Shown here: positions 5,744 to 63,689 of the stretch, piece by piece
Layout of the letters: every line of letters begins with the position of its first letter
Numbering within the stretch: the stretch's first letter is position 1
Assembly: GCA_030019255.1 (NCBI GenBank)
Contig: JASEFK010000008.1
Location: 43,185 to 107,184 of the forward strand
DNA: 64,000 nt
Source: Actinomycetota bacterium
Lineage (GTDB): Bacteria > Actinomycetota > Geothermincolia > Geothermincolales > RBG-13-55-18
Reading direction: 5' to 3'
Notes under the pieces: generated by a model
The model's input: only the letters and a program-made list of their open reading frames with translations
The model's database searches: none
What the model was told of the DNA's origin: nothing
Made by a program: the position numbers and the translations under genes

Positions 5744-6460
5744 ATGCAGACGGAGCTTGTCGCCGTGACCAGGACGGGGAAGGGCAAGGAAGCGGCCAAG
5801 AAGCTGCGCCGCTCCGGCCTCATCCCCGCCGTCCTTTACGGACACCGCTTCGAGCCGCTCCACCTAGCCCTGAAGGAAAGGACCTTCCTGGCAGCACTGC
5901 GCCGGGAGCGAGGCCTCCATGGACTGGTGAAGCTCAGGGTGGAGGACGCGGAGGACGGTGAGCACACCGTCCTGGTGAAGGAGGTACAGAGGGACCCCCT
6001 CAAGGATCACATCCTTCACGTGGACCTCCAGAAGGTCCACGCCGACGAGGAGCTCCAGGCCACGGTGTCCCTGCACTTCACCGGGGAAGCGGCGGGGGTG
6101 AAGGCGGGAGGCATACTCAACCATTACCTCTACGAGGTGCGCGTGCAGTGCCTGCCCAAGGACCTGCCGGAGTTCATCGAGGTGGACGTCTCCCACCTGA
6201 ACCTGAAGGAGAGCCTCCGGGTGGCAGACCTGCCCCGCCTGGAGGGCATCAAGTACCTGAACAAGCCCGAGGAGATAGTGGCCGCCGTGACCCCCAAGCG
6301 GGTGCGGGAAGCGGCCCGGACGGCACAGGTGCTCTTCGAGACCGCGCCGGAGGAGGAAGCCGCTGCCGGAGTAGCGGCGGAGGAAGAGGGACCCGAGGCG
6401 GAGGCTTCCGCCCCCCGGGAGGAGGGAGAAGCGGAAGCCGGAGAGTCTTCCGGAGAATAG
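5744..6460 (+). CDS. rplY: 50S ribosomal protein L25 / general stress protein Ctc
   Basis: 238 residues. The N-terminal L25 domain that binds 5S rRNA (TELVAVTRTGKGKEAAKKLRRSG, followed by the IPAVLYG segment) is followed by the TL5/Ctc-type beta domain (HILHVDLQKV, residues ~90-185) and a low-complexity Glu/Ala tail of about 45 residues. The ATG at 5744 is chosen because AGAGGTG lies six bases upstream; GTG 5735 and TTG 5738 are in frame but badly placed. The gene is adjacent to pth, as ctc-pth in Bacillus. Confidence 0.93.
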   Translation: MQTELVAVTRTGKGKEAAKKLRRSGLIPAVLYGHRFEPLHLALKERTFLAALRRERGLHGLVKLRVEDAEDGEHTVLVKEVQRDPLKDHILHVDLQKVHADEELQATVSLHFTGEAAGVKAGGILNHYLYEVRVQCLPKDLPEFIEVDVSHLNLKESLRVADLPRLEGIKYLNKPEEIVAAVTPKRVREAARTAQVLFETAPEEEAAAGVAAEEEGPEAEASAPREEGEAEAGESSGE

Positions 6461-48357: not shown

Positions 48358-49581
48358 TTAGAGGGCTTTCTCCTCCGAGAGTTCCATCATCCGCCGCATC
48401 TCCTGCTCCAGGAGAGGTGGGAGGCCCTCTATCTTCACGTTCAGGAAGCCGCGTACGATGGTGGAGACGGCCTCTTCCTCGCTCAAGCCCCGGGCCATGA
48501 GGTATTCCACCTCCTCCTGGGCGATCTTCCCCACCGCCGCCTCGTGGGACATGTCCACGTCCTCCGCCCTTCCCTCCAGCTCGGGCACGGCGTGGATCAC
48601 ACCACGCCCGTCGAGGATGAGCCCCCGGCACTCCAGGTGGGCCTTGACGCCTCCCACCTCGCCCCGGATGTGGCCCCGGGCGGCGATGTAGCCTCCCTTG
48701 GTAATGGCCCGGGAGATTATCTCCGCGCTGCAGCGGGGAGCGCCCAGGATGACCCGCGAGCCCACGTCCAGCTCGCTCCCCGGCTGGGCCACCAGGATGG
48801 AGTGGAACCGCGCCGTGGCCCCCTCCCCTACCAGCCTCGCCGTGGGATAGAGCTGCAGGGATTTCACCGGTTCCATGACCACGTAGTTGGACATGAAGAG
48901 CCCGCCCTCCTCCACCACGATGCCGCTGCGGGGCCGCACGTCCATACCCTCCGCCCAGTTGTGGACCATGGTGAAGGTTATCCTGGCGTTCTTCTTCACG
49001 TAGAACTCGGAGACGCCCAGGTGCAGGCCGGCCCGGATCTCGTGCTCGCTGGCGCACCCGGTGATGATGTGCAACTCCGAGCCCTCCTCGGCGATGATGA
49101 TGTTATGCACCCGTTGCGCAAAGCGAGGCTGGCGGATGTACAGGCAAGCCTGCAGGGGATATATGGTACGTGAACCGGGCAGGGCGCGCATGAAGTAACC
49201 CTCGAAGGGGCCGAGCTCCACCGCCGCCGTGTACTTGTCGGCGTCCACGGCCACGGCCTTCCAATAGTAGTCCCATATCCAGTCATATTTTTCCAGCGCC
49301 TCCCGGGTGCTCAGTATCTCCAGGCCTTTTTCCAGGGCCTTGCGGTGCACCACCGAGCCGTCAATCTGCACGAAGGAGCCGGAGCGCCGGCGGCCGCTCT
49401 TCTCCACCCCGGCGCGGGCCAGCTCCTCCTCGCCAAGTTCCTCAAGCTGCTCCAGGGAATCCACGTAGGAGCGCTCGGGGGCCGCACCGACATAGGCGCC
49501 GAGGTCAAGGTCGCTCCCGTAGGGGGCGGGTTTATCCGCCGCCGCCCTGGCCCTTTCCCTGAGTTCCTTCAACGCGTGCAT
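48358..49581 (-). CDS. sufB: SufB-type Fe-S cluster scaffold protein (SMS/minimal SUF)
   Basis: 407 residues from ATG 49581, overlapping the sufC stop by 13 bp. SufB/SufD family beta-helix: IIIAEEGSELHIITGCAS, HNWAEGMDVRPRSGIVVEEGG, LGAPRCSAEIISRAITKGG and DMSHEAAVGKIAQEEVEYLMARGLSEEEA, the last being the family C-terminal signature. Short, with no separate SufD, SufS, SufE or SufU nearby. A SufB-like protein paired only with SufC is the arrangement described as the SUF-like minimal system. The CASEH and GAPRC Cys are candidate cluster ligands. Confidence 0.93.
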   Translation of the reverse strand: MHALKELRERARAAADKPAPYGSDLDLGAYVGAAPERSYVDSLEQLEELGEEELARAGVEKSGRRRSGSFVQIDGSVVHRKALEKGLEILSTREALEKYDWIWDYYWKAVAVDADKYTAAVELGPFEGYFMRALPGSRTIYPLQACLYIRQPRFAQRVHNIIIAEEGSELHIITGCASEHEIRAGLHLGVSEFYVKKNARITFTMVHNWAEGMDVRPRSGIVVEEGGLFMSNYVVMEPVKSLQLYPTARLVGEGATARFHSILVAQPGSELDVGSRVILGAPRCSAEIISRAITKGGYIAARGHIRGEVGGVKAHLECRGLILDGRGVIHAVPELEGRAEDVDMSHEAAVGKIAQEEVEYLMARGLSEEEAVSTIVRGFLNVKIEGLPPLLEQEMRRMMELSEEKAL

Positions 49582-50321
49582 CGCGCACACTCCTCGAACC
49601 CGTAACGACGAATCCCCTCCAGTTGCTCCCGGGGGTTGCCTGAACACACGATGGTCCCCTCGCAGAGCACGTGACCAACATCCGCCTCCACGTAGTCCAG
49701 GATGTAACCGGTGTGGGTGATGATCAGCCCGCACCGGGTGCGGCGACGGCGGAGGTCCTTCTGGAGAAGCTTGCGGATGGCCCTGCCCACCAGCTGCAGG
49801 TTCTCCATGTCCACCCCGGACTCCGGCTCGTCCAGAAGCACCACGCGGGGATCCTGGGCCAGGAGCTGCAGGAGCTCGGAGCGTTTTATCTCCCCCCCGG
49901 AGAACCCGTGGTTCACGTCCCGCGAAAGGAACTCCACGAGGTTGAGGTCCGCGGCCAGCTTCTCCACGTCCACCCCGTCCCGCGAGCACAGAGCCACCAT
50001 CTGAGCCAGGGAGACCCCCCTCACCGTGGGAGGCCGCTGGAACATGATGCCTATACCCCGCCTGGCTCTCTCGTGGGGGGGCAGGTGGGTGATGTCCTCC
50101 CCTCCCAGGATTATCCTCCCCCGGGTAACCCGGTAGCGGGGAAAGCCCATCACCGCCATAAGCAGGGTGGTCTTGCCCGAGCCGTTGGGCCCGAAGAGAA
50201 CGTGGGTCTCCCCGCACCTGATGTCCAGGTTCACCCCGTGGAGGATCTGCCGTCCCTCCACCTCTACATGAAGGTCCTCCACCTTCAGGGTGGTGTCCCG
50301 TTCTTCCCTTGCTTCCTCCAA
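49569..50321 (-). CDS. sufC: SufC ATPase of minimal SUF system
   Basis: 250 residues from TTG 50321, which has GGGAGGTGA five bases upstream; the frame is open to 50423 but that extension is not family-like. Walker [33 protein letters not shown], signature FSGGEIKRSELLQLLAQDP, Walker B VVLLDEPESGVDMENL and ITHTGYILDYVEAD. Cytosolic ABC ATPase that drives cluster assembly on SufB. First gene of the two-gene operon. Confidence 0.94.
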   Translation of the reverse strand: MEEAREERDTTLKVEDLHVEVEGRQILHGVNLDIRCGETHVLFGPNGSGKTTLLMAVMGFPRYRVTRGRIILGGEDITHLPPHERARRGIGIMFQRPPTVRGVSLAQMVALCSRDGVDVEKLAADLNLVEFLSRDVNHGFSGGEIKRSELLQLLAQDPRVVLLDEPESGVDMENLQLVGRAIRKLLQKDLRRRRTRCGLIITHTGYILDYVEADVGHVLCEGTIVCSGNPREQLEGIRRYGFEECARCTR

Positions 50322-50729
50322 TTTCTCACCTCCCGGTTCCGGGATAGTCGGTTCCGCCGCCGACGGTGATAACGTCCGCTTTCCGGCCTCATCGTATCGA
50401 CGGTGACGATTCGCGAATCCCATCGACCTTGCTATCCGCCTTAGCCTGGACCATGCCCGACTGCGCCTCTGCTCGCCATCAATTTTACCCCCGCAGAAAA
50501 GGGGCCTAAAACCCTTCCTCCCCTTCCGGTAAATTGCGGGAGGCAGTTATCTCCTGAACAATCCTTGGGATAAAAGTTTGAAAAGTCTGTTTATCCTCGA
50601 TCAAGCAAGCTGAAGGAAAGGGGTGTTTATCCTGATTCGGCCAGCGGTCTTCGCTAACCGCAATTACCCCTTAAAGCCACCCTCCGGTTCACCGCAAGAT
50701 ACTGCGGACAGCTGGATCCCGCGTCATGC
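50322..50729. other. Intergenic region upstream of sufC
   Basis: About 400 bp. A 12-bp palindrome GATTCGCGAATC lies at 50408-50419, 87 bp before the sufC start, and GACGGTGA is repeated around 50362 and 50400; these may be operators. No promoter match is convincing. Confidence 0.4.
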
Positions 50730-60549: not shown

Positions 60550-60801
60550 GTGGAGGAGAGGTTTCCCGCATTCCGTGCCAAGGCCGAGGAGGTCATACGG
60601 AGAGTCTCGAGCCTGGAGGGGGAGGAGGACTACCGCGAGCTTCTCTGCGGAGATTGTCCCTTTTATCACCATGGAGAGGAGGAGAACGAGGAATGTGGAA
60701 GTTACCGCCTCCTCCGTGCCCTCCTGGAGGCCGGGGCCCTTGATCTCAAGGCTTTGCTCGAGGCCCTAGACGGAAACGGTCCGCGGAACCGGCAGCCGTG
60801 A
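60550..60801 (+). CDS. Small Cys-motif protein (CxDCPF type)
   Basis: 83 residues. GTG start with AAGGAGGT four bases upstream, so translation is well supported. A helical N-terminus precedes LLCGDCPFYHHGEEENEECGSY (Cys 33, 36 and 49 plus two His), a plausible metal or Fe-S site, and a leucine-rich helix. Shares the C-x-D-C-P-F core with the 62-residue protein at 50.7 kb. It is 230 bp upstream of the radical SAM gene in the same orientation. No family recognised. Confidence 0.7.
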   Translation: MEERFPAFRAKAEEVIRRVSSLEGEEDYRELLCGDCPFYHHGEEENEECGSYRLLRALLEAGALDLKALLEALDGNGPRNRQP

Positions 60802-61027
60802 ACCGCGGAGGCGGTACACGCCAGATCTTGCAGGCTGGAATTGACGACCTCAAACTTGCCGAAATGTCCTTAAAGTGCAAGCCGGAGGGGATACCGGGTT
60901 TCGCGGGTCGGTGGAGACAAAGTCAATCGCGTTTCCCGCCGGGAACGTAAATGTTGAAAGAAACGGCCCACGCTTCGTACAGCCCGGGCTCCGGGGTGAA
61001 CGGAACCAGCAAGGGGAGTGAAAGTTC

Positions 61028-62212
61028 GTGGAGGGCAGAAGCGCCTACCCCCGGCTCCAGGCCGGGGTCTACCTCAAACAATTGGAGAAACCATGCGTTT
61101 ACGACACGCGCACCGATGAGCTGTACGAGCTATCCCCGGAGGCCATGACCTTCCTCTGCCGGTGCGACGGCAGCCGCAACCTCGGGGAGCTGCGGCCGGA
61201 GGAAGGCTTCCTAGCTTACTGCCTGGAGGAGGGCATCCTTGAAATACTGGAACGGCCCGAACCCTCGCCTTTAAAGGTGGGGATCAACGAGCTCCCTTCC
61301 CTGCGCTACCTGATGGTGGAGGTGACCGAGCGCTGCAACCTGCGCTGCCGTCACTGTTACCTGGGAGAGGCCGGGGAGAAGGATCTGGAACCCGCTATAC
61401 TCCTTCGTATACTGGACGATTTCGATGACCTGGGGGGCTTGCGCCTGATGGTGACCGGTGGTGAACCTCTCCTCTATCCCTATTTGGACCGCCTCAACCG
61501 GGCCCTGGGGGGCAGGAGCTTCCGCCCCGTGCTCATCACCAACGGCACCCTCCTGGACCGGAGAATGATAACCACCCTTAACTTCCGGGAAATCCAGTTC
61601 TCCCTGGACGGCCTGGAGGAAGGACACGACTTCCTGCGTGGAAAGGGCACTTTCCGGAAGGTCATGGAGGCCATGAAGAAAGCTCTCCATGCCGACCTTG
61701 AGGTTTCCGTGGCCACAGTCATCCACAGGAAAAACGTGCATGAGTTGGAAAAGCTTGGCAAGATGCTGGCGGACATGGGGGTATCTTCCTGGACCCTCGA
61801 ATACCCGGTGGCCTGTGGACGCCTGGCCGATAACCCGGACCTTATGCTCGGGGTGGACGAAGCCGCTCCCCTCTTCGACTTGGAATGGGGTTCCGGTCCC
61901 CACGCTGGGGAAGGCGGTTATGCCTGCGGGGCCCACCTGGCGGCGGTGGACGCGTCGGGCCGCCTCATCAAGTGCGGCTACTACCGTGAATTGAGCGGGG
62001 GTTCGGCGGGCGGGGGACTGCGCTCCGCCTGGCGCGCCCTTCCCAAGATGCGCCTGGAGGGTTCCTGTACTTCGTGCCCCGCGCTCGAGGAATGCGGGGG
62101 CGGATGCCGCTACCGCGCCGAGCTCATGGAGGGACCCGGGGGAAGGGACCTGCTCATGTGCGCCCGCCTGGGTATGCTCCAGCAGAAGGTGCAGCCCCCA
62201 CGCCGCGCTTGA
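61028..62212 (+). CDS. Radical SAM/SPASM peptide maturase with PqqD-like N-terminus
   Basis: 394 residues. GTG start preceded by AAGGGGAGTGAAA. Residues ~10-75 (YLKQLEKPCVYDTRTDELYELSPEAMTFL, then GILEI) look like a PqqD/RRE peptide-binding domain. The radical SAM core has CNLRCRHC (C103, C107, C110), MVTGGEPLLYP and ITNGTLLDRR. The C-terminal SPASM domain is rich in Cys (YACGAHL, IKCGYY, CTSCPALEECGGGC, MCARL), enough for one or two auxiliary [4Fe-4S] clusters. Fused RRE plus SPASM is the layout of RiPP maturases forming C-S or C-C cross-links. A 21-residue three-Cys peptide is encoded 260 bp downstream. Confidence 0.9.
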   Translation: MEGRSAYPRLQAGVYLKQLEKPCVYDTRTDELYELSPEAMTFLCRCDGSRNLGELRPEEGFLAYCLEEGILEILERPEPSPLKVGINELPSLRYLMVEVTERCNLRCRHCYLGEAGEKDLEPAILLRILDDFDDLGGLRLMVTGGEPLLYPYLDRLNRALGGRSFRPVLITNGTLLDRRMITTLNFREIQFSLDGLEEGHDFLRGKGTFRKVMEAMKKALHADLEVSVATVIHRKNVHELEKLGKMLADMGVSSWTLEYPVACGRLADNPDLMLGVDEAAPLFDLEWGSGPHAGEGGYACGAHLAAVDASGRLIKCGYYRELSGGSAGGGLRSAWRALPKMRLEGSCTSCPALEECGGGCRYRAELMEGPGGRDLLMCARLGMLQQKVQPPRRA

Positions 62213-62430
62213 TCTCCTCGGGCCCCCTGGAAAACCCCAACTTCGCCCGCGGGAGAAACGACCTCCGAGTGCGAGAAGCGTGCACGCCGACCCCCCGGCC
62301 ATTCCATGCAACCTGCCAGGAAATGACTTGTGAAAAGGGCCTCCCGGAATCTTTTCATTGCCTCATCTCGAATATGCAGGTACCCGGAAAATACTTCCTG
62401 CGCCCCGGTTTATCCTTTCCCCGACCGGTG

Positions 62431-62436
62431 TATAAT
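62431..62436 (+). promoter_or_regulatory. -10 element of the small peptide gene
   Basis: Perfect TATAAT directly preceded by TG, 35 bp before the peptide start codon and 22 bp before its ribosome site; the -35 (TTTATC near 62409) is weak. The small gene probably has its own transcript in addition to any read-through from the radical SAM gene. Confidence 0.55.
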
Positions 62437-62471
62437 AATATTAAGGAACCCACTACCAAGGAGGTGGTGAG

Positions 62472-62537
62472 ATGAGGATCACGAAGATCCCCAGGAAGAA
62501 GGGCGGAACCTGCAAGTGCAATAAGAGCTGCGGCTGA
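62472..62537 (+). CDS. 21-residue three-cysteine peptide, candidate RiPP precursor
   Basis: ATG with a consensus AAGGAGGT six bases upstream, 21 codons, TGA, then a perfect intrinsic terminator 10 bp later. The sequence is MRITKIPRKKGG followed by TCKCNKSCG: a basic 12-residue leader ending in a double glycine, and a 9-residue segment with Cys at 14, 16 and 20. Directly downstream of the PqqD-fused radical SAM/SPASM gene. Thioether or similar cross-linking of the Cys, and cleavage after GG, are inferences; a small metal-binding peptide is the alternative. Confidence 0.75.
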   Translation: MRITKIPRKKGGTCKCNKSCG

Positions 62538-62547
62538 TACGCCCGAA

Positions 62548-62580
62548 AACAGGGAGGCCGGACGGCCTCCCTGTTTTTTT
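62548..62580 (+). terminator. Strong rho-independent terminator
   Basis: AACAGGGAGGCCG, loop GA, CGGCCTCCCTGTT, then T7. The 13-bp stem is perfect. It ends the peptide transcript and separates it from the convergent ferredoxin-like gene. Confidence 0.95.
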
Positions 62581-62591
62581 CTTATGCGCTC

Positions 62592-63689
62592 CTATTTCCT
62601 ACGCATGGAGGCCATGAACTCCTCCCTGGTGGGCACCAGCGTGGTTTCGTCACGCCTCTTCAGGGCTATGGCTCCACCCGTGCAGTTGGTAACGCATACC
62701 CCACAACCCAGGCACAGCCTGCGATCGACCCGGGCCAGCTCGTGCTCGTCCAGGCCCACCGCGCCCACCGGGCACCTCTCCTCGCACTCCCCGCATCCCA
62801 CGCACGTCTCCCGGTCCACGCGCGCCAGGTAGCTGGAGGTGTTTACCGCGTTGTCGAACCTCAACTCCAGCCTGCCCCTCATGAACACACAGCAGCAGGA
62901 ACAGCAGCAGCACAGGGTGTTTACCTCTCCCTGGTAGTTGTCGGTCAAGAAAATCAGGCCCGCCTCGCGGGCTTCCTCCAGCTTGCGCACCGATTCCTCG
63001 AGCGAAATCTCCCATCCCATCCCCTGCTCCGCCAGGAAACGACCGAAGGAACCGAAGTGGAAACAGTTTTCCCTTTCGTGGTCGCAACCGCCCCCCGCAT
63101 AGGCCGCCATTGTTCGGCAGGCGCAGTGGGACACGGCCCGGAAGGAAGCCTGTTCCACCAGCTCCTTGGCCGTCTCGAAGGGGAGGATCTCCGCCGCCTC
63201 GTCGATGTCCTCCTCCAGGGGGACCACCCTCACCAGGGGGAGTTCCCGGTCAGCTATTTCCCTTCCCCAGGCCTTGCGGAAGTAGCGTAACCACAGGTCC
63301 GCCAGCCGCCGCGCTTCCTCGGTGTCCCGACCCGTCCAGAAGGGCGCTTCCCTGAGGCCCATCAAGCCGGGCACAAGGCGGTAACTGGCCACTCCATCCT
63401 TCAACTCCTTGTACACGATACCCCTGGAGGCCATGGCATCCAGGGCGCCTTGAAGCTCATCCTCGGGCATTCCCAGCTCGGCGGCGATGTCCGGGAGGGG
63501 CGTGTCCCGATAGGGAAGCCGCGCCGCCAGCCGGGCCTCCTCGGGTTCGAAGAGAACGCGCAGTATCTCCAGCCGTTCCTCGCTCGGGGGAAAGCCGACC
63601 GGCATGCCGTCGAGATGTTCAGCCAGCGCGGAATAGACCTCGTCCTCCAACACCATCACCCCCGCTTCCGACTCCTTAAATTTTAACAT
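62592..63689 (-). CDS. Winged-helix / dicluster 4Fe-4S ferredoxin-like protein with Cys-rich loop
   Basis: 365 residues from ATG 63689, or 354 from ATG 63656. The N-terminal part looks like a winged helix (TPLPDIAAELGMPEDELQGALDAMASRGIVYKE, residues ~60-100). The middle has SHCACRTM, CDHERENC and a striking CCCCSCCC stretch after EVNTL. The C-terminus has two [4Fe-4S] motifs (CVGCGECEERCPVGAV and CLGCGVCVTNCTGGAI). Probably a redox or cluster-sensing protein; related proteins with CCxCCC are known from anaerobes without assigned function. Convergent with the peptide gene. Confidence 0.85.
   Translation of the reverse strand: MLKFKESEAGVMVLEDEVYSALAEHLDGMPVGFPPSEERLEILRVLFEPEEARLAARLPYRDTPLPDIAAELGMPEDELQGALDAMASRGIVYKELKDGVASYRLVPGLMGLREAPFWTGRDTEEARRLADLWLRYFRKAWGREIADRELPLVRVVPLEEDIDEAAEILPFETAKELVEQASFRAVSHCACRTMAAYAGGGCDHERENCFHFGSFGRFLAEQGMGWEISLEESVRKLEEAREAGLIFLTDNYQGEVNTLCCCCSCCCVFMRGRLELRFDNAVNTSSYLARVDRETCVGCGECEERCPVGAVGLDEHELARVDRRLCLGCGVCVTNCTGGAIALKRRDETTLVPTREEFMASMRRK

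Follow-up and report, generated by a model that had tools for sequence, protein, structure and literature searches.

Among ribosomal peptides that radical SAM enzymes modify, conservation from one phylum to another is rare; the known cases, PQQ and mycofactocin, are redox cofactors. PQQ, a cofactor and not a bacteriocin, involves a short precursor, a SPASM enzyme and a PqqD-type recognition domain; its precursor PqqA averages 23 residues (PMC3023750). In the mycofactocin system, a short and strikingly conserved peptide tail is paired with a radical SAM/SPASM enzyme in different phyla, and genome evidence of the kind used here led to its discovery (PMC3023750). In the SCIFF/CteB system, a well-conserved Cys-rich ribosomal peptide of Clostridia, with about six Cys in 45 residues, is paired with one RRE-bearing radical SAM/SPASM enzyme, and the bond as first reported links Cys32 to Thr37 (PMC8172795). 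The sactipeptide maturases SkfB, AlbA and StsB are also built of RRE, radical SAM and SPASM parts.

The locus described here lies in an Actinomycetota genome, in a stretch of 64,000 nucleotides (contig JASEFK010000008.1) that is called the window below. It resembles each of these systems in part. As in SCIFF, a conserved Cys-rich peptide accompanies a single RRE-bearing enzyme. However, the peptide has three Cys in 20 residues and occurs in other phyla and in archaea, the locus has an additional Cys-protein partner and a hairpin leader, and there is no common sequence family. The features of ranthipeptide precursors (six Cys in 45 residues, or PapB-type Cys-X3-Asp repeats) are absent, as are Asp acceptors. 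Compared with PQQ, where PqqD is a separate protein, the recognition domain is fused to the enzyme, and the cross-linked Glu and Tyr of PqqA are both missing from the peptide; there is neither a PqqE equivalog nor a PqqA-type precursor, and the locus showed no further pqq-like gene. Mycofactocin differs in its invariant residues and enzyme family, and its glycosyltransferase and nicotinoprotein context was not seen here. Finally, unlike sactipeptide loci, this one has no exporter, protease or immunity genes, and its peptide, which is much shorter, is almost invariant. What the locus does possess are the general features of RRE radical SAM/SPASM RiPP systems, namely the Cys motifs, an RRE-type domain and a conserved precursor that tracks the enzyme. 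It is best read as an undescribed RRE/SPASM peptide-modification system, in which the kind of modification is known and, as far as libraries show, the precursor family, its partner, its leader RNA and its taxonomic span are not described.

A conserved 21-codon gene downstream of the enzyme

The features of the locus, all on the forward strand, are as follows.

60550-60801, +: small Cys protein (LLCxDCxFYxxxEExxECGxY...), 83 aa, GTG start
61028-62212, +: radical SAM/SPASM peptide maturase, 394 aa, GTG start; Pfam Radical_SAM, E 2e-20
61028-61255, +: N-terminal PqqD/RRE-like winged-helix domain, residues 1-76, from AF2 topology
61334-61357, +: radical SAM motif CX3CX2C (C103, C107, C110), invariant in 51 of 51 aligned enzymes
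61925-62161, +: SPASM seven-Cys motif from sequence, C300 X10 G X4 C316 ... C347X2C350X5C356X3C360 ... C378
62431-62436, +: TATAAT -10 box of the peptide transcript, from sequence
62451-62469, +: leader hairpin CACTACC-AAGGA-GGTGGTG holding the ribosome site, -10.2 kcal/mol, z -2.0
62458-62464, +: Shine-Dalgarno AAGGAGG of the peptide gene, from sequence
62472-62537, +: precursor peptide gene, ATG at 62472, stop codon ending at 62537, 21 codons, product MRITKIPRKKGGTCKCNKSCG
62476-62490, +: possible second hairpin GGATC-ACGAA-GATCC over codons 2-7, a putative predicted fold
62545-62578, +: intrinsic terminator, 15 pairs plus T tail, fold -27.5 kcal/mol, z -5.95

The peptide gene starts 259 bp after the enzyme stop codon, and the original prediction had placed the enzyme and the 21-codon gene, with its ribosome site, TATAAT and perfect terminator, where we find them. 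The span that it delimited (60550-62580) also contains the 83-aa Cys protein; it missed that protein as a component, together with the leader RNA, the ribosome-site hairpin and the spread between phyla and domains. A strict sigma-70 scan of the forward strand found no promoter at the peptide gene and no strict -35 element, so that the evidence for a promoter is the -10 box, which is similarly placed in relatives.

A 21-codon open reading frame is by itself weak evidence for a gene, and the proof rests on conservation. The peptide is found in 14 of the 15 genomes of the window's family at 90-100% identity, while the enzymes are 53-77% identical. The same 14 genomes hold both the peptide and the orthologous enzyme, the exception being a genome that is 79% complete (G010). 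In 12 of the 14 the peptide gene lies 3' of the enzyme gene within a few hundred bases; of the other two, G004 has both genes at contig ends and G005 carries the peptide elsewhere in the genome. Apart from one GTG start, the only changes at the protein level in the family are K/R and N/S exchanges. Synonymous changes occur in the 14 genomes at codons 7-21, most of which vary, and are totally absent from codons 2-6. The variation of synonymous sites from codon 7 onwards, together with the conservative replacements, therefore indicates that the protein is under selection, and the invariance of codons 2-6 suggests an extra constraint on the RNA. Because it is kept in 14 of 15 family genomes and recurs in other phyla, the three-Cys peptide is encoded by a real, conserved coding gene.

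A gene encoding 365 aa converges on the peptide gene in the window (62592-63689, reverse strand); its product contains two 4Fe-4S motifs and the run CCCCSCCC, and its match to a NirDL-like HTH is weak. In another Actinomycetota family (f27) a different small ferredoxin gene likewise converges on the peptide gene. Elsewhere in the window (48358-50423, reverse strand), adjacent open reading frames read as SufC- and SufB-type iron-sulfur assembly proteins in the list of open reading frames.

An RRE-bearing radical SAM/SPASM enzyme

The enzyme consists of an RRE-like domain, a radical SAM core and a SPASM domain. In the latter, C300, C316, C350, C356, C360 and C378 are invariant in the 51 enzymes, the CX2C pair reads CXC in many, and the spacing agrees with the motif quoted in PMC5715301. 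The N-terminal domain carries a conserved LKxLExPxVYxxxxDELYELD stretch and is matched by Pfam PqqD in only one of the 51 enzymes (E 0.038). Nevertheless, the PqqD/RRE-like N-terminus proposed from the sequence is supported by the AlphaFold model (pLDDT 93.7), in which strand-strand-strand topology plus three helices occupies residues 7-74 (strands at 7-10, 14-18, 22-26 and 31-34; helices at 37-44, 52-55 and 59-67), as well as by full-length matches to RRE-bearing maturases. The best folds in the PDB are SkfB (E 4.8e-16), SuiB, which is RRE-bearing, and CteB, aligned over most of the chain including the RRE region; sequence-profile matches also place SkfB first and include PqqE and CteB. An RRE domain is documented for both SkfB and CteB (PMC8172795).

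No NCBIfam equivalog reaches its cut-off with the enzyme: scores are 81 bits for StsB (cut-off 625), 67 for PqqE (381), 64 and 50 for PapB (340), and 69-94 for mycofactocin MftC TIGR03962 (265), and the best scores against the curated sactipeptide maturase families (AlbA, SkfB, StsB) are all far below the cut-offs. The enzyme is usually present in a single copy per genome, and its tree is clustered by phylum, with Methanoperedens forming one clade.

A peptide family shared by bacteria and archaea

Single-sequence and profile searches of 397 Actinomycetota genomes gave MIKKIVRRKGGTCKCNKSCG, MRIAKVAKKASSTCKCSKSC, MKIRKVSRRRSSTCKCSSSC and others, nearly always beside homologues of the enzyme. A search anchored on the enzyme in another Actinomycetota class gave 17 loci with a CKCxxSC peptide near most of them, one of which has Leu instead of Thr at position 13; here only C-x-C or CKC had been fixed beforehand, and CKCxxSC was still recovered. 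We then ran a codon-degenerate pattern on about 85,000 species genomes (one per GTDB species), which gave at least 119 loci where about three are expected by chance from base frequencies. A start codon stands at the expected place in 118 of the 120 matches listed, and two of the 120 look like chance hits. The matches listed come from Nitrospirota, the methane-oxidising archaea Candidatus Methanoperedens, Solincola, Geothermincola and other Actinomycetota, Syntrophaceae and other deltaproteobacteria, and Rokubacteria (a Rokubacterium), with the consensus M[KRTV]I[KR]K[VI]x[KR]xx[AS]xTCKCxxSC. Residues I3, K5, T13, C14, K15, C16, C20 and, mostly, S19 were fixed by the scan pattern and are therefore conserved by construction in that set; the freer enzyme-anchored and profile sets agree with the consensus except at T13, which may also be L or N.

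These searches bear out the proposed pairing of precursor and maturase: the peptide is kept beside homologues of the enzyme in the window's family and in other phyla, all three of its Cys are invariant, and no other precursor turned up with homologues of the enzyme. The suggestion that the peptide is far below usual precursor length was overstated, since the 23-residue average of PqqA (PMC3023750) provides a precedent for length by itself. Searches of NCBIfam and Pfam with the peptide, at E up to 10, gave zero matches, and a search with the core strings and the names Nitrospirota, Methanoperedens and Thermodesulfovibrio in full-text literature, and in the titles and abstracts of mining reviews, gave nothing.

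Some genomes have duplicate peptide genes. L125 has copies at 233-286 and 1676-1729, and L205 (G662) near 6100 and 7600, the second copy of the latter having its own leader RNA and lying 3' of a duplicated end of the enzyme gene. Methanoperedens nitroreducens Mnv1 (L116/L170) has two diverged copies, neither of them beside an enzyme gene in the fetched stretch.

The nearest folds of the enzyme, SkfB and CteB, and the Cys-rich C-terminus of the peptide would be compatible with a secreted bacteriocin or a signalling peptide of the sactipeptide or ranthipeptide type, released at a double-glycine leader cleavage site. In that sense the original prediction took the GG to end a 12-residue leader. 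This has to be rejected because GG at positions 11-12 is specific to the window's order, and SS, AT, ST, RG, AG or MP stand there elsewhere; moreover, no recurrent exporter or C39 peptidase gene lies near the peptide or the enzyme, and the NHLP/double-glycine type thus lacks both its cleavage site and a linked C39/ABC exporter. Across phyla and domains the core hardly changes, and as a rule a genome has one copy of the enzyme, which is the opposite of an arms race, and the phylum-clustered enzyme tree is likewise unlike that of an arms-race bacteriocin. A secreted bacteriocin or signal is accordingly improbable.

Peptide and enzyme occur together, often unlinked

Among the 119 loci listed, 63 have an enzyme gene in the same fetched stretch, which in 57 is upstream and on the same strand, and of 33 genomes whose peptide is unlinked, 27 encode the enzyme elsewhere. 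Across 198 Nitrospirota genomes, both genes occur in 53, the enzyme alone in 15, the peptide alone in one and neither in 129 (Fisher p 3.7e-33). Inspection of the 15 enzyme-only genomes showed a slightly divergent peptide beside the enzyme in two, an unlinked peptide in 11 (ten of them M-I-[KR]-K-[VI]-S-G-K-x-x-[PS]-T-C-K-C-K-x-S-C), a copy whose frame is broken in a poly-A tract in one, and no peptide in one. The peptide is thus present, often unlinked, in 66 of the 68 Nitrospirota genomes with the enzyme, and the system is therefore obligate even if dispersed. In one genome (G776), the peptide is present and no enzyme was detected.

The peptide gene does not adjoin the enzyme gene in roughly 40% of loci. 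As a rule, though with exceptions, a RiPP precursor is encoded close to its maturase (PMC3023750); this proportion is unusual for RiPPs and counts against our best explanation. A survey of neighbours showed no dependent enzyme or pathway near the peptide. The only recurrent neighbours, a TPR protein, ispE and prs, were rejected as functional context, this Nitrospirota synteny being judged coincidental. Genes for superoxide dismutase- or rubrerythrin-like proteins recur on the opposite strand near some Nitrospirota loci (L232, L124, L204 and similar ones), which may point to oxidative stress or to synteny alone.

The NCBIfam neighbours of the enzyme include NirJ and AhbC/AhbD, and in some clades the small Cys protein is a stricter gene neighbour than the peptide. 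The enzyme might therefore act on another substrate, either that protein or a tetrapyrrole as its NirJ/AhbC relatives do, leaving the peptide as a co-regulated passenger. However, the NirJ/Ahb scores are far below the curated cut-offs and cover the radical SAM core alone, the RRE-like N-terminus suits peptide recognition, and peptide and enzyme co-occur even where they are unlinked. We thus regard another substrate as unlikely.

A structured leader RNA specific to the peptide gene

The ribosome-site hairpin is kept across the window's family, and a relative from the same order (L148) has CAACACT-AAGGA-GGTGTTG, where other pairs build the same stem. In Nitrospirota and one actinobacterial family, two hairpins precede the ATG, the first with an A(N)GAA-type loop and the second of the form CCCT-ANGAA-AGGG, whose 3' arm is the ribosome site. 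Covariation shows that this leader RNA has been conserved in Nitrospirota and the related actinobacterial group: 95.7% of cells are paired, and the score is 0.545 versus 0.179 when shuffled (0/500) and at most 0.129 when the partners are slid. Leaders from Nitrospirota usually have two hairpins; those of Thermodesulfovibrionales-like loci L353-L363 have three in tandem, with identical AUGAA loops and differing stem pairs, about 75 bases before the ATG.

With a covariance model, strong matches in 45 genomes were found solely 5' of peptide genes, in one genome also at a second copy. The leader is therefore cis-acting on the peptide gene, and a regulon role was rejected on the same grounds. Binding of the hairpins by the basic peptide itself, in the manner of lambda boxB, was set aside because the loops are not GNRA-like. 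A putative recognition of the AGGA loop by CsrA was also left aside. Rfam reported just tRNAs at the gathering score in 18 loci, and a loose scan of one leader gave sub-threshold matches that we treated as chance.

Given a structured and conserved leader RNA, and codons 2-6 whose nucleotides stay fixed in the window's family, the short open reading frame could be a mere leader peptide, an attenuator or part of a regulatory RNA, with the RNA conserved rather than the protein. We consider this very improbable. Other synonymous sites vary while the residues stay (TGC/TGT, AAA/AAG, TCN/AGY), the peptide gene has its own terminator and shares no downstream gene, and in Actinomycetota and Methanoperedens the protein motif persists even with a different RNA leader.

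A small Cys protein as third component

In Actinomycetota, Methanoperedens, deltaproteobacterial groups and Rokubacteria, homologues of the small Cys protein are encoded immediately 5' of the enzyme; in many Nitrospirota a tandem two-domain version faces the enzyme. Among the matches listed, 39 of the 63 enzyme loci have it. The alignment gives the domain motif C-x2-C-x-[FY]-[YF] ... [LE]EC[GSA], which has no family in Pfam or NCBIfam, and the AF2 model is helical (pLDDT 84.9), without a fold match in the PDB. The small Cys protein probably assists the enzyme, either by carrying the peptide or as a protein that binds metal or an iron-sulfur cluster.

A Cys-rich partner, the CxCxxxC thiolates of the peptide and its combination of three Cys with basic residues would also suit a Cu, Zn or Fe mini-metallothionein or carrier, unmodified or delivering metal to an enzyme that needs the peptide and does not modify it. 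Such a role is unlikely, as the enzyme carries an RRE-like domain and folds most like peptide maturases, and RRE plus SPASM normally implies a peptide substrate. The unmodified peptide could still itself bind metal.

A possible peptide-derived cofactor

Taking these data together, we think it likely that the RRE/SPASM enzyme modifies the short peptide into a conserved intracellular factor, with the Cys protein and the leader RNA as parts of the system. The RRE would bind the basic, conserved N-terminal half (MxIxK[VI]x[KR]...) of the 20-21-residue peptide, and radical chemistry would then act on the invariant TCKCxxSC tail, most likely introducing at least one Cys thioether cross-link. A candidate bond is Cys14 to the invariant Ser19, because its i+5 spacing would equal that of Cys32-Thr37 in SCIFF (PMC8172795), whose enzyme CteB is among the best folds. 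The small Cys protein would probably help as an iron-sulfur or metal protein or as a peptide carrier. The peptide mRNA would be transcribed separately, with its 5' leader hairpins controlling access of the ribosome.

Rather than a bacteriocin, the product is probably a conserved factor inside the cell, either a redox cofactor or a metal ligand. A cofactor fits better because of the frozen sequence, the usually single-copy enzyme, the phylum-wide inheritance and the absence of an exporter, and a similar 'cofactor grammar' has been described for mycofactocin (PMC3023750). Probably the peptides give rise to a product that is made on the ribosome, resembles a cofactor, is undescribed and has escaped gene callers. 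That it is a peptide-derived cofactor or metal-binding prosthetic group common to Nitrospirota, ANME-2d archaea, deep Actinomycetota and others we put forward tentatively, at a little short of an even chance; the peptide would have escaped notice because gene callers do not accept so short a gene, and its synthesis may be feedback-controlled via tandem A(N)GAA-loop hairpins unique to the peptide mRNA.

The peptide family, which reaches the archaea and is absent from Pfam and NCBIfam, is among the shortest precursor families, and illustrates that unannotated open reading frames of about 20 codons can hold conserved biology. Through it one can approach, by direct tests, a product that could be of consequence in Nitrospirota and Methanoperedens, which are environmentally important anaerobes.
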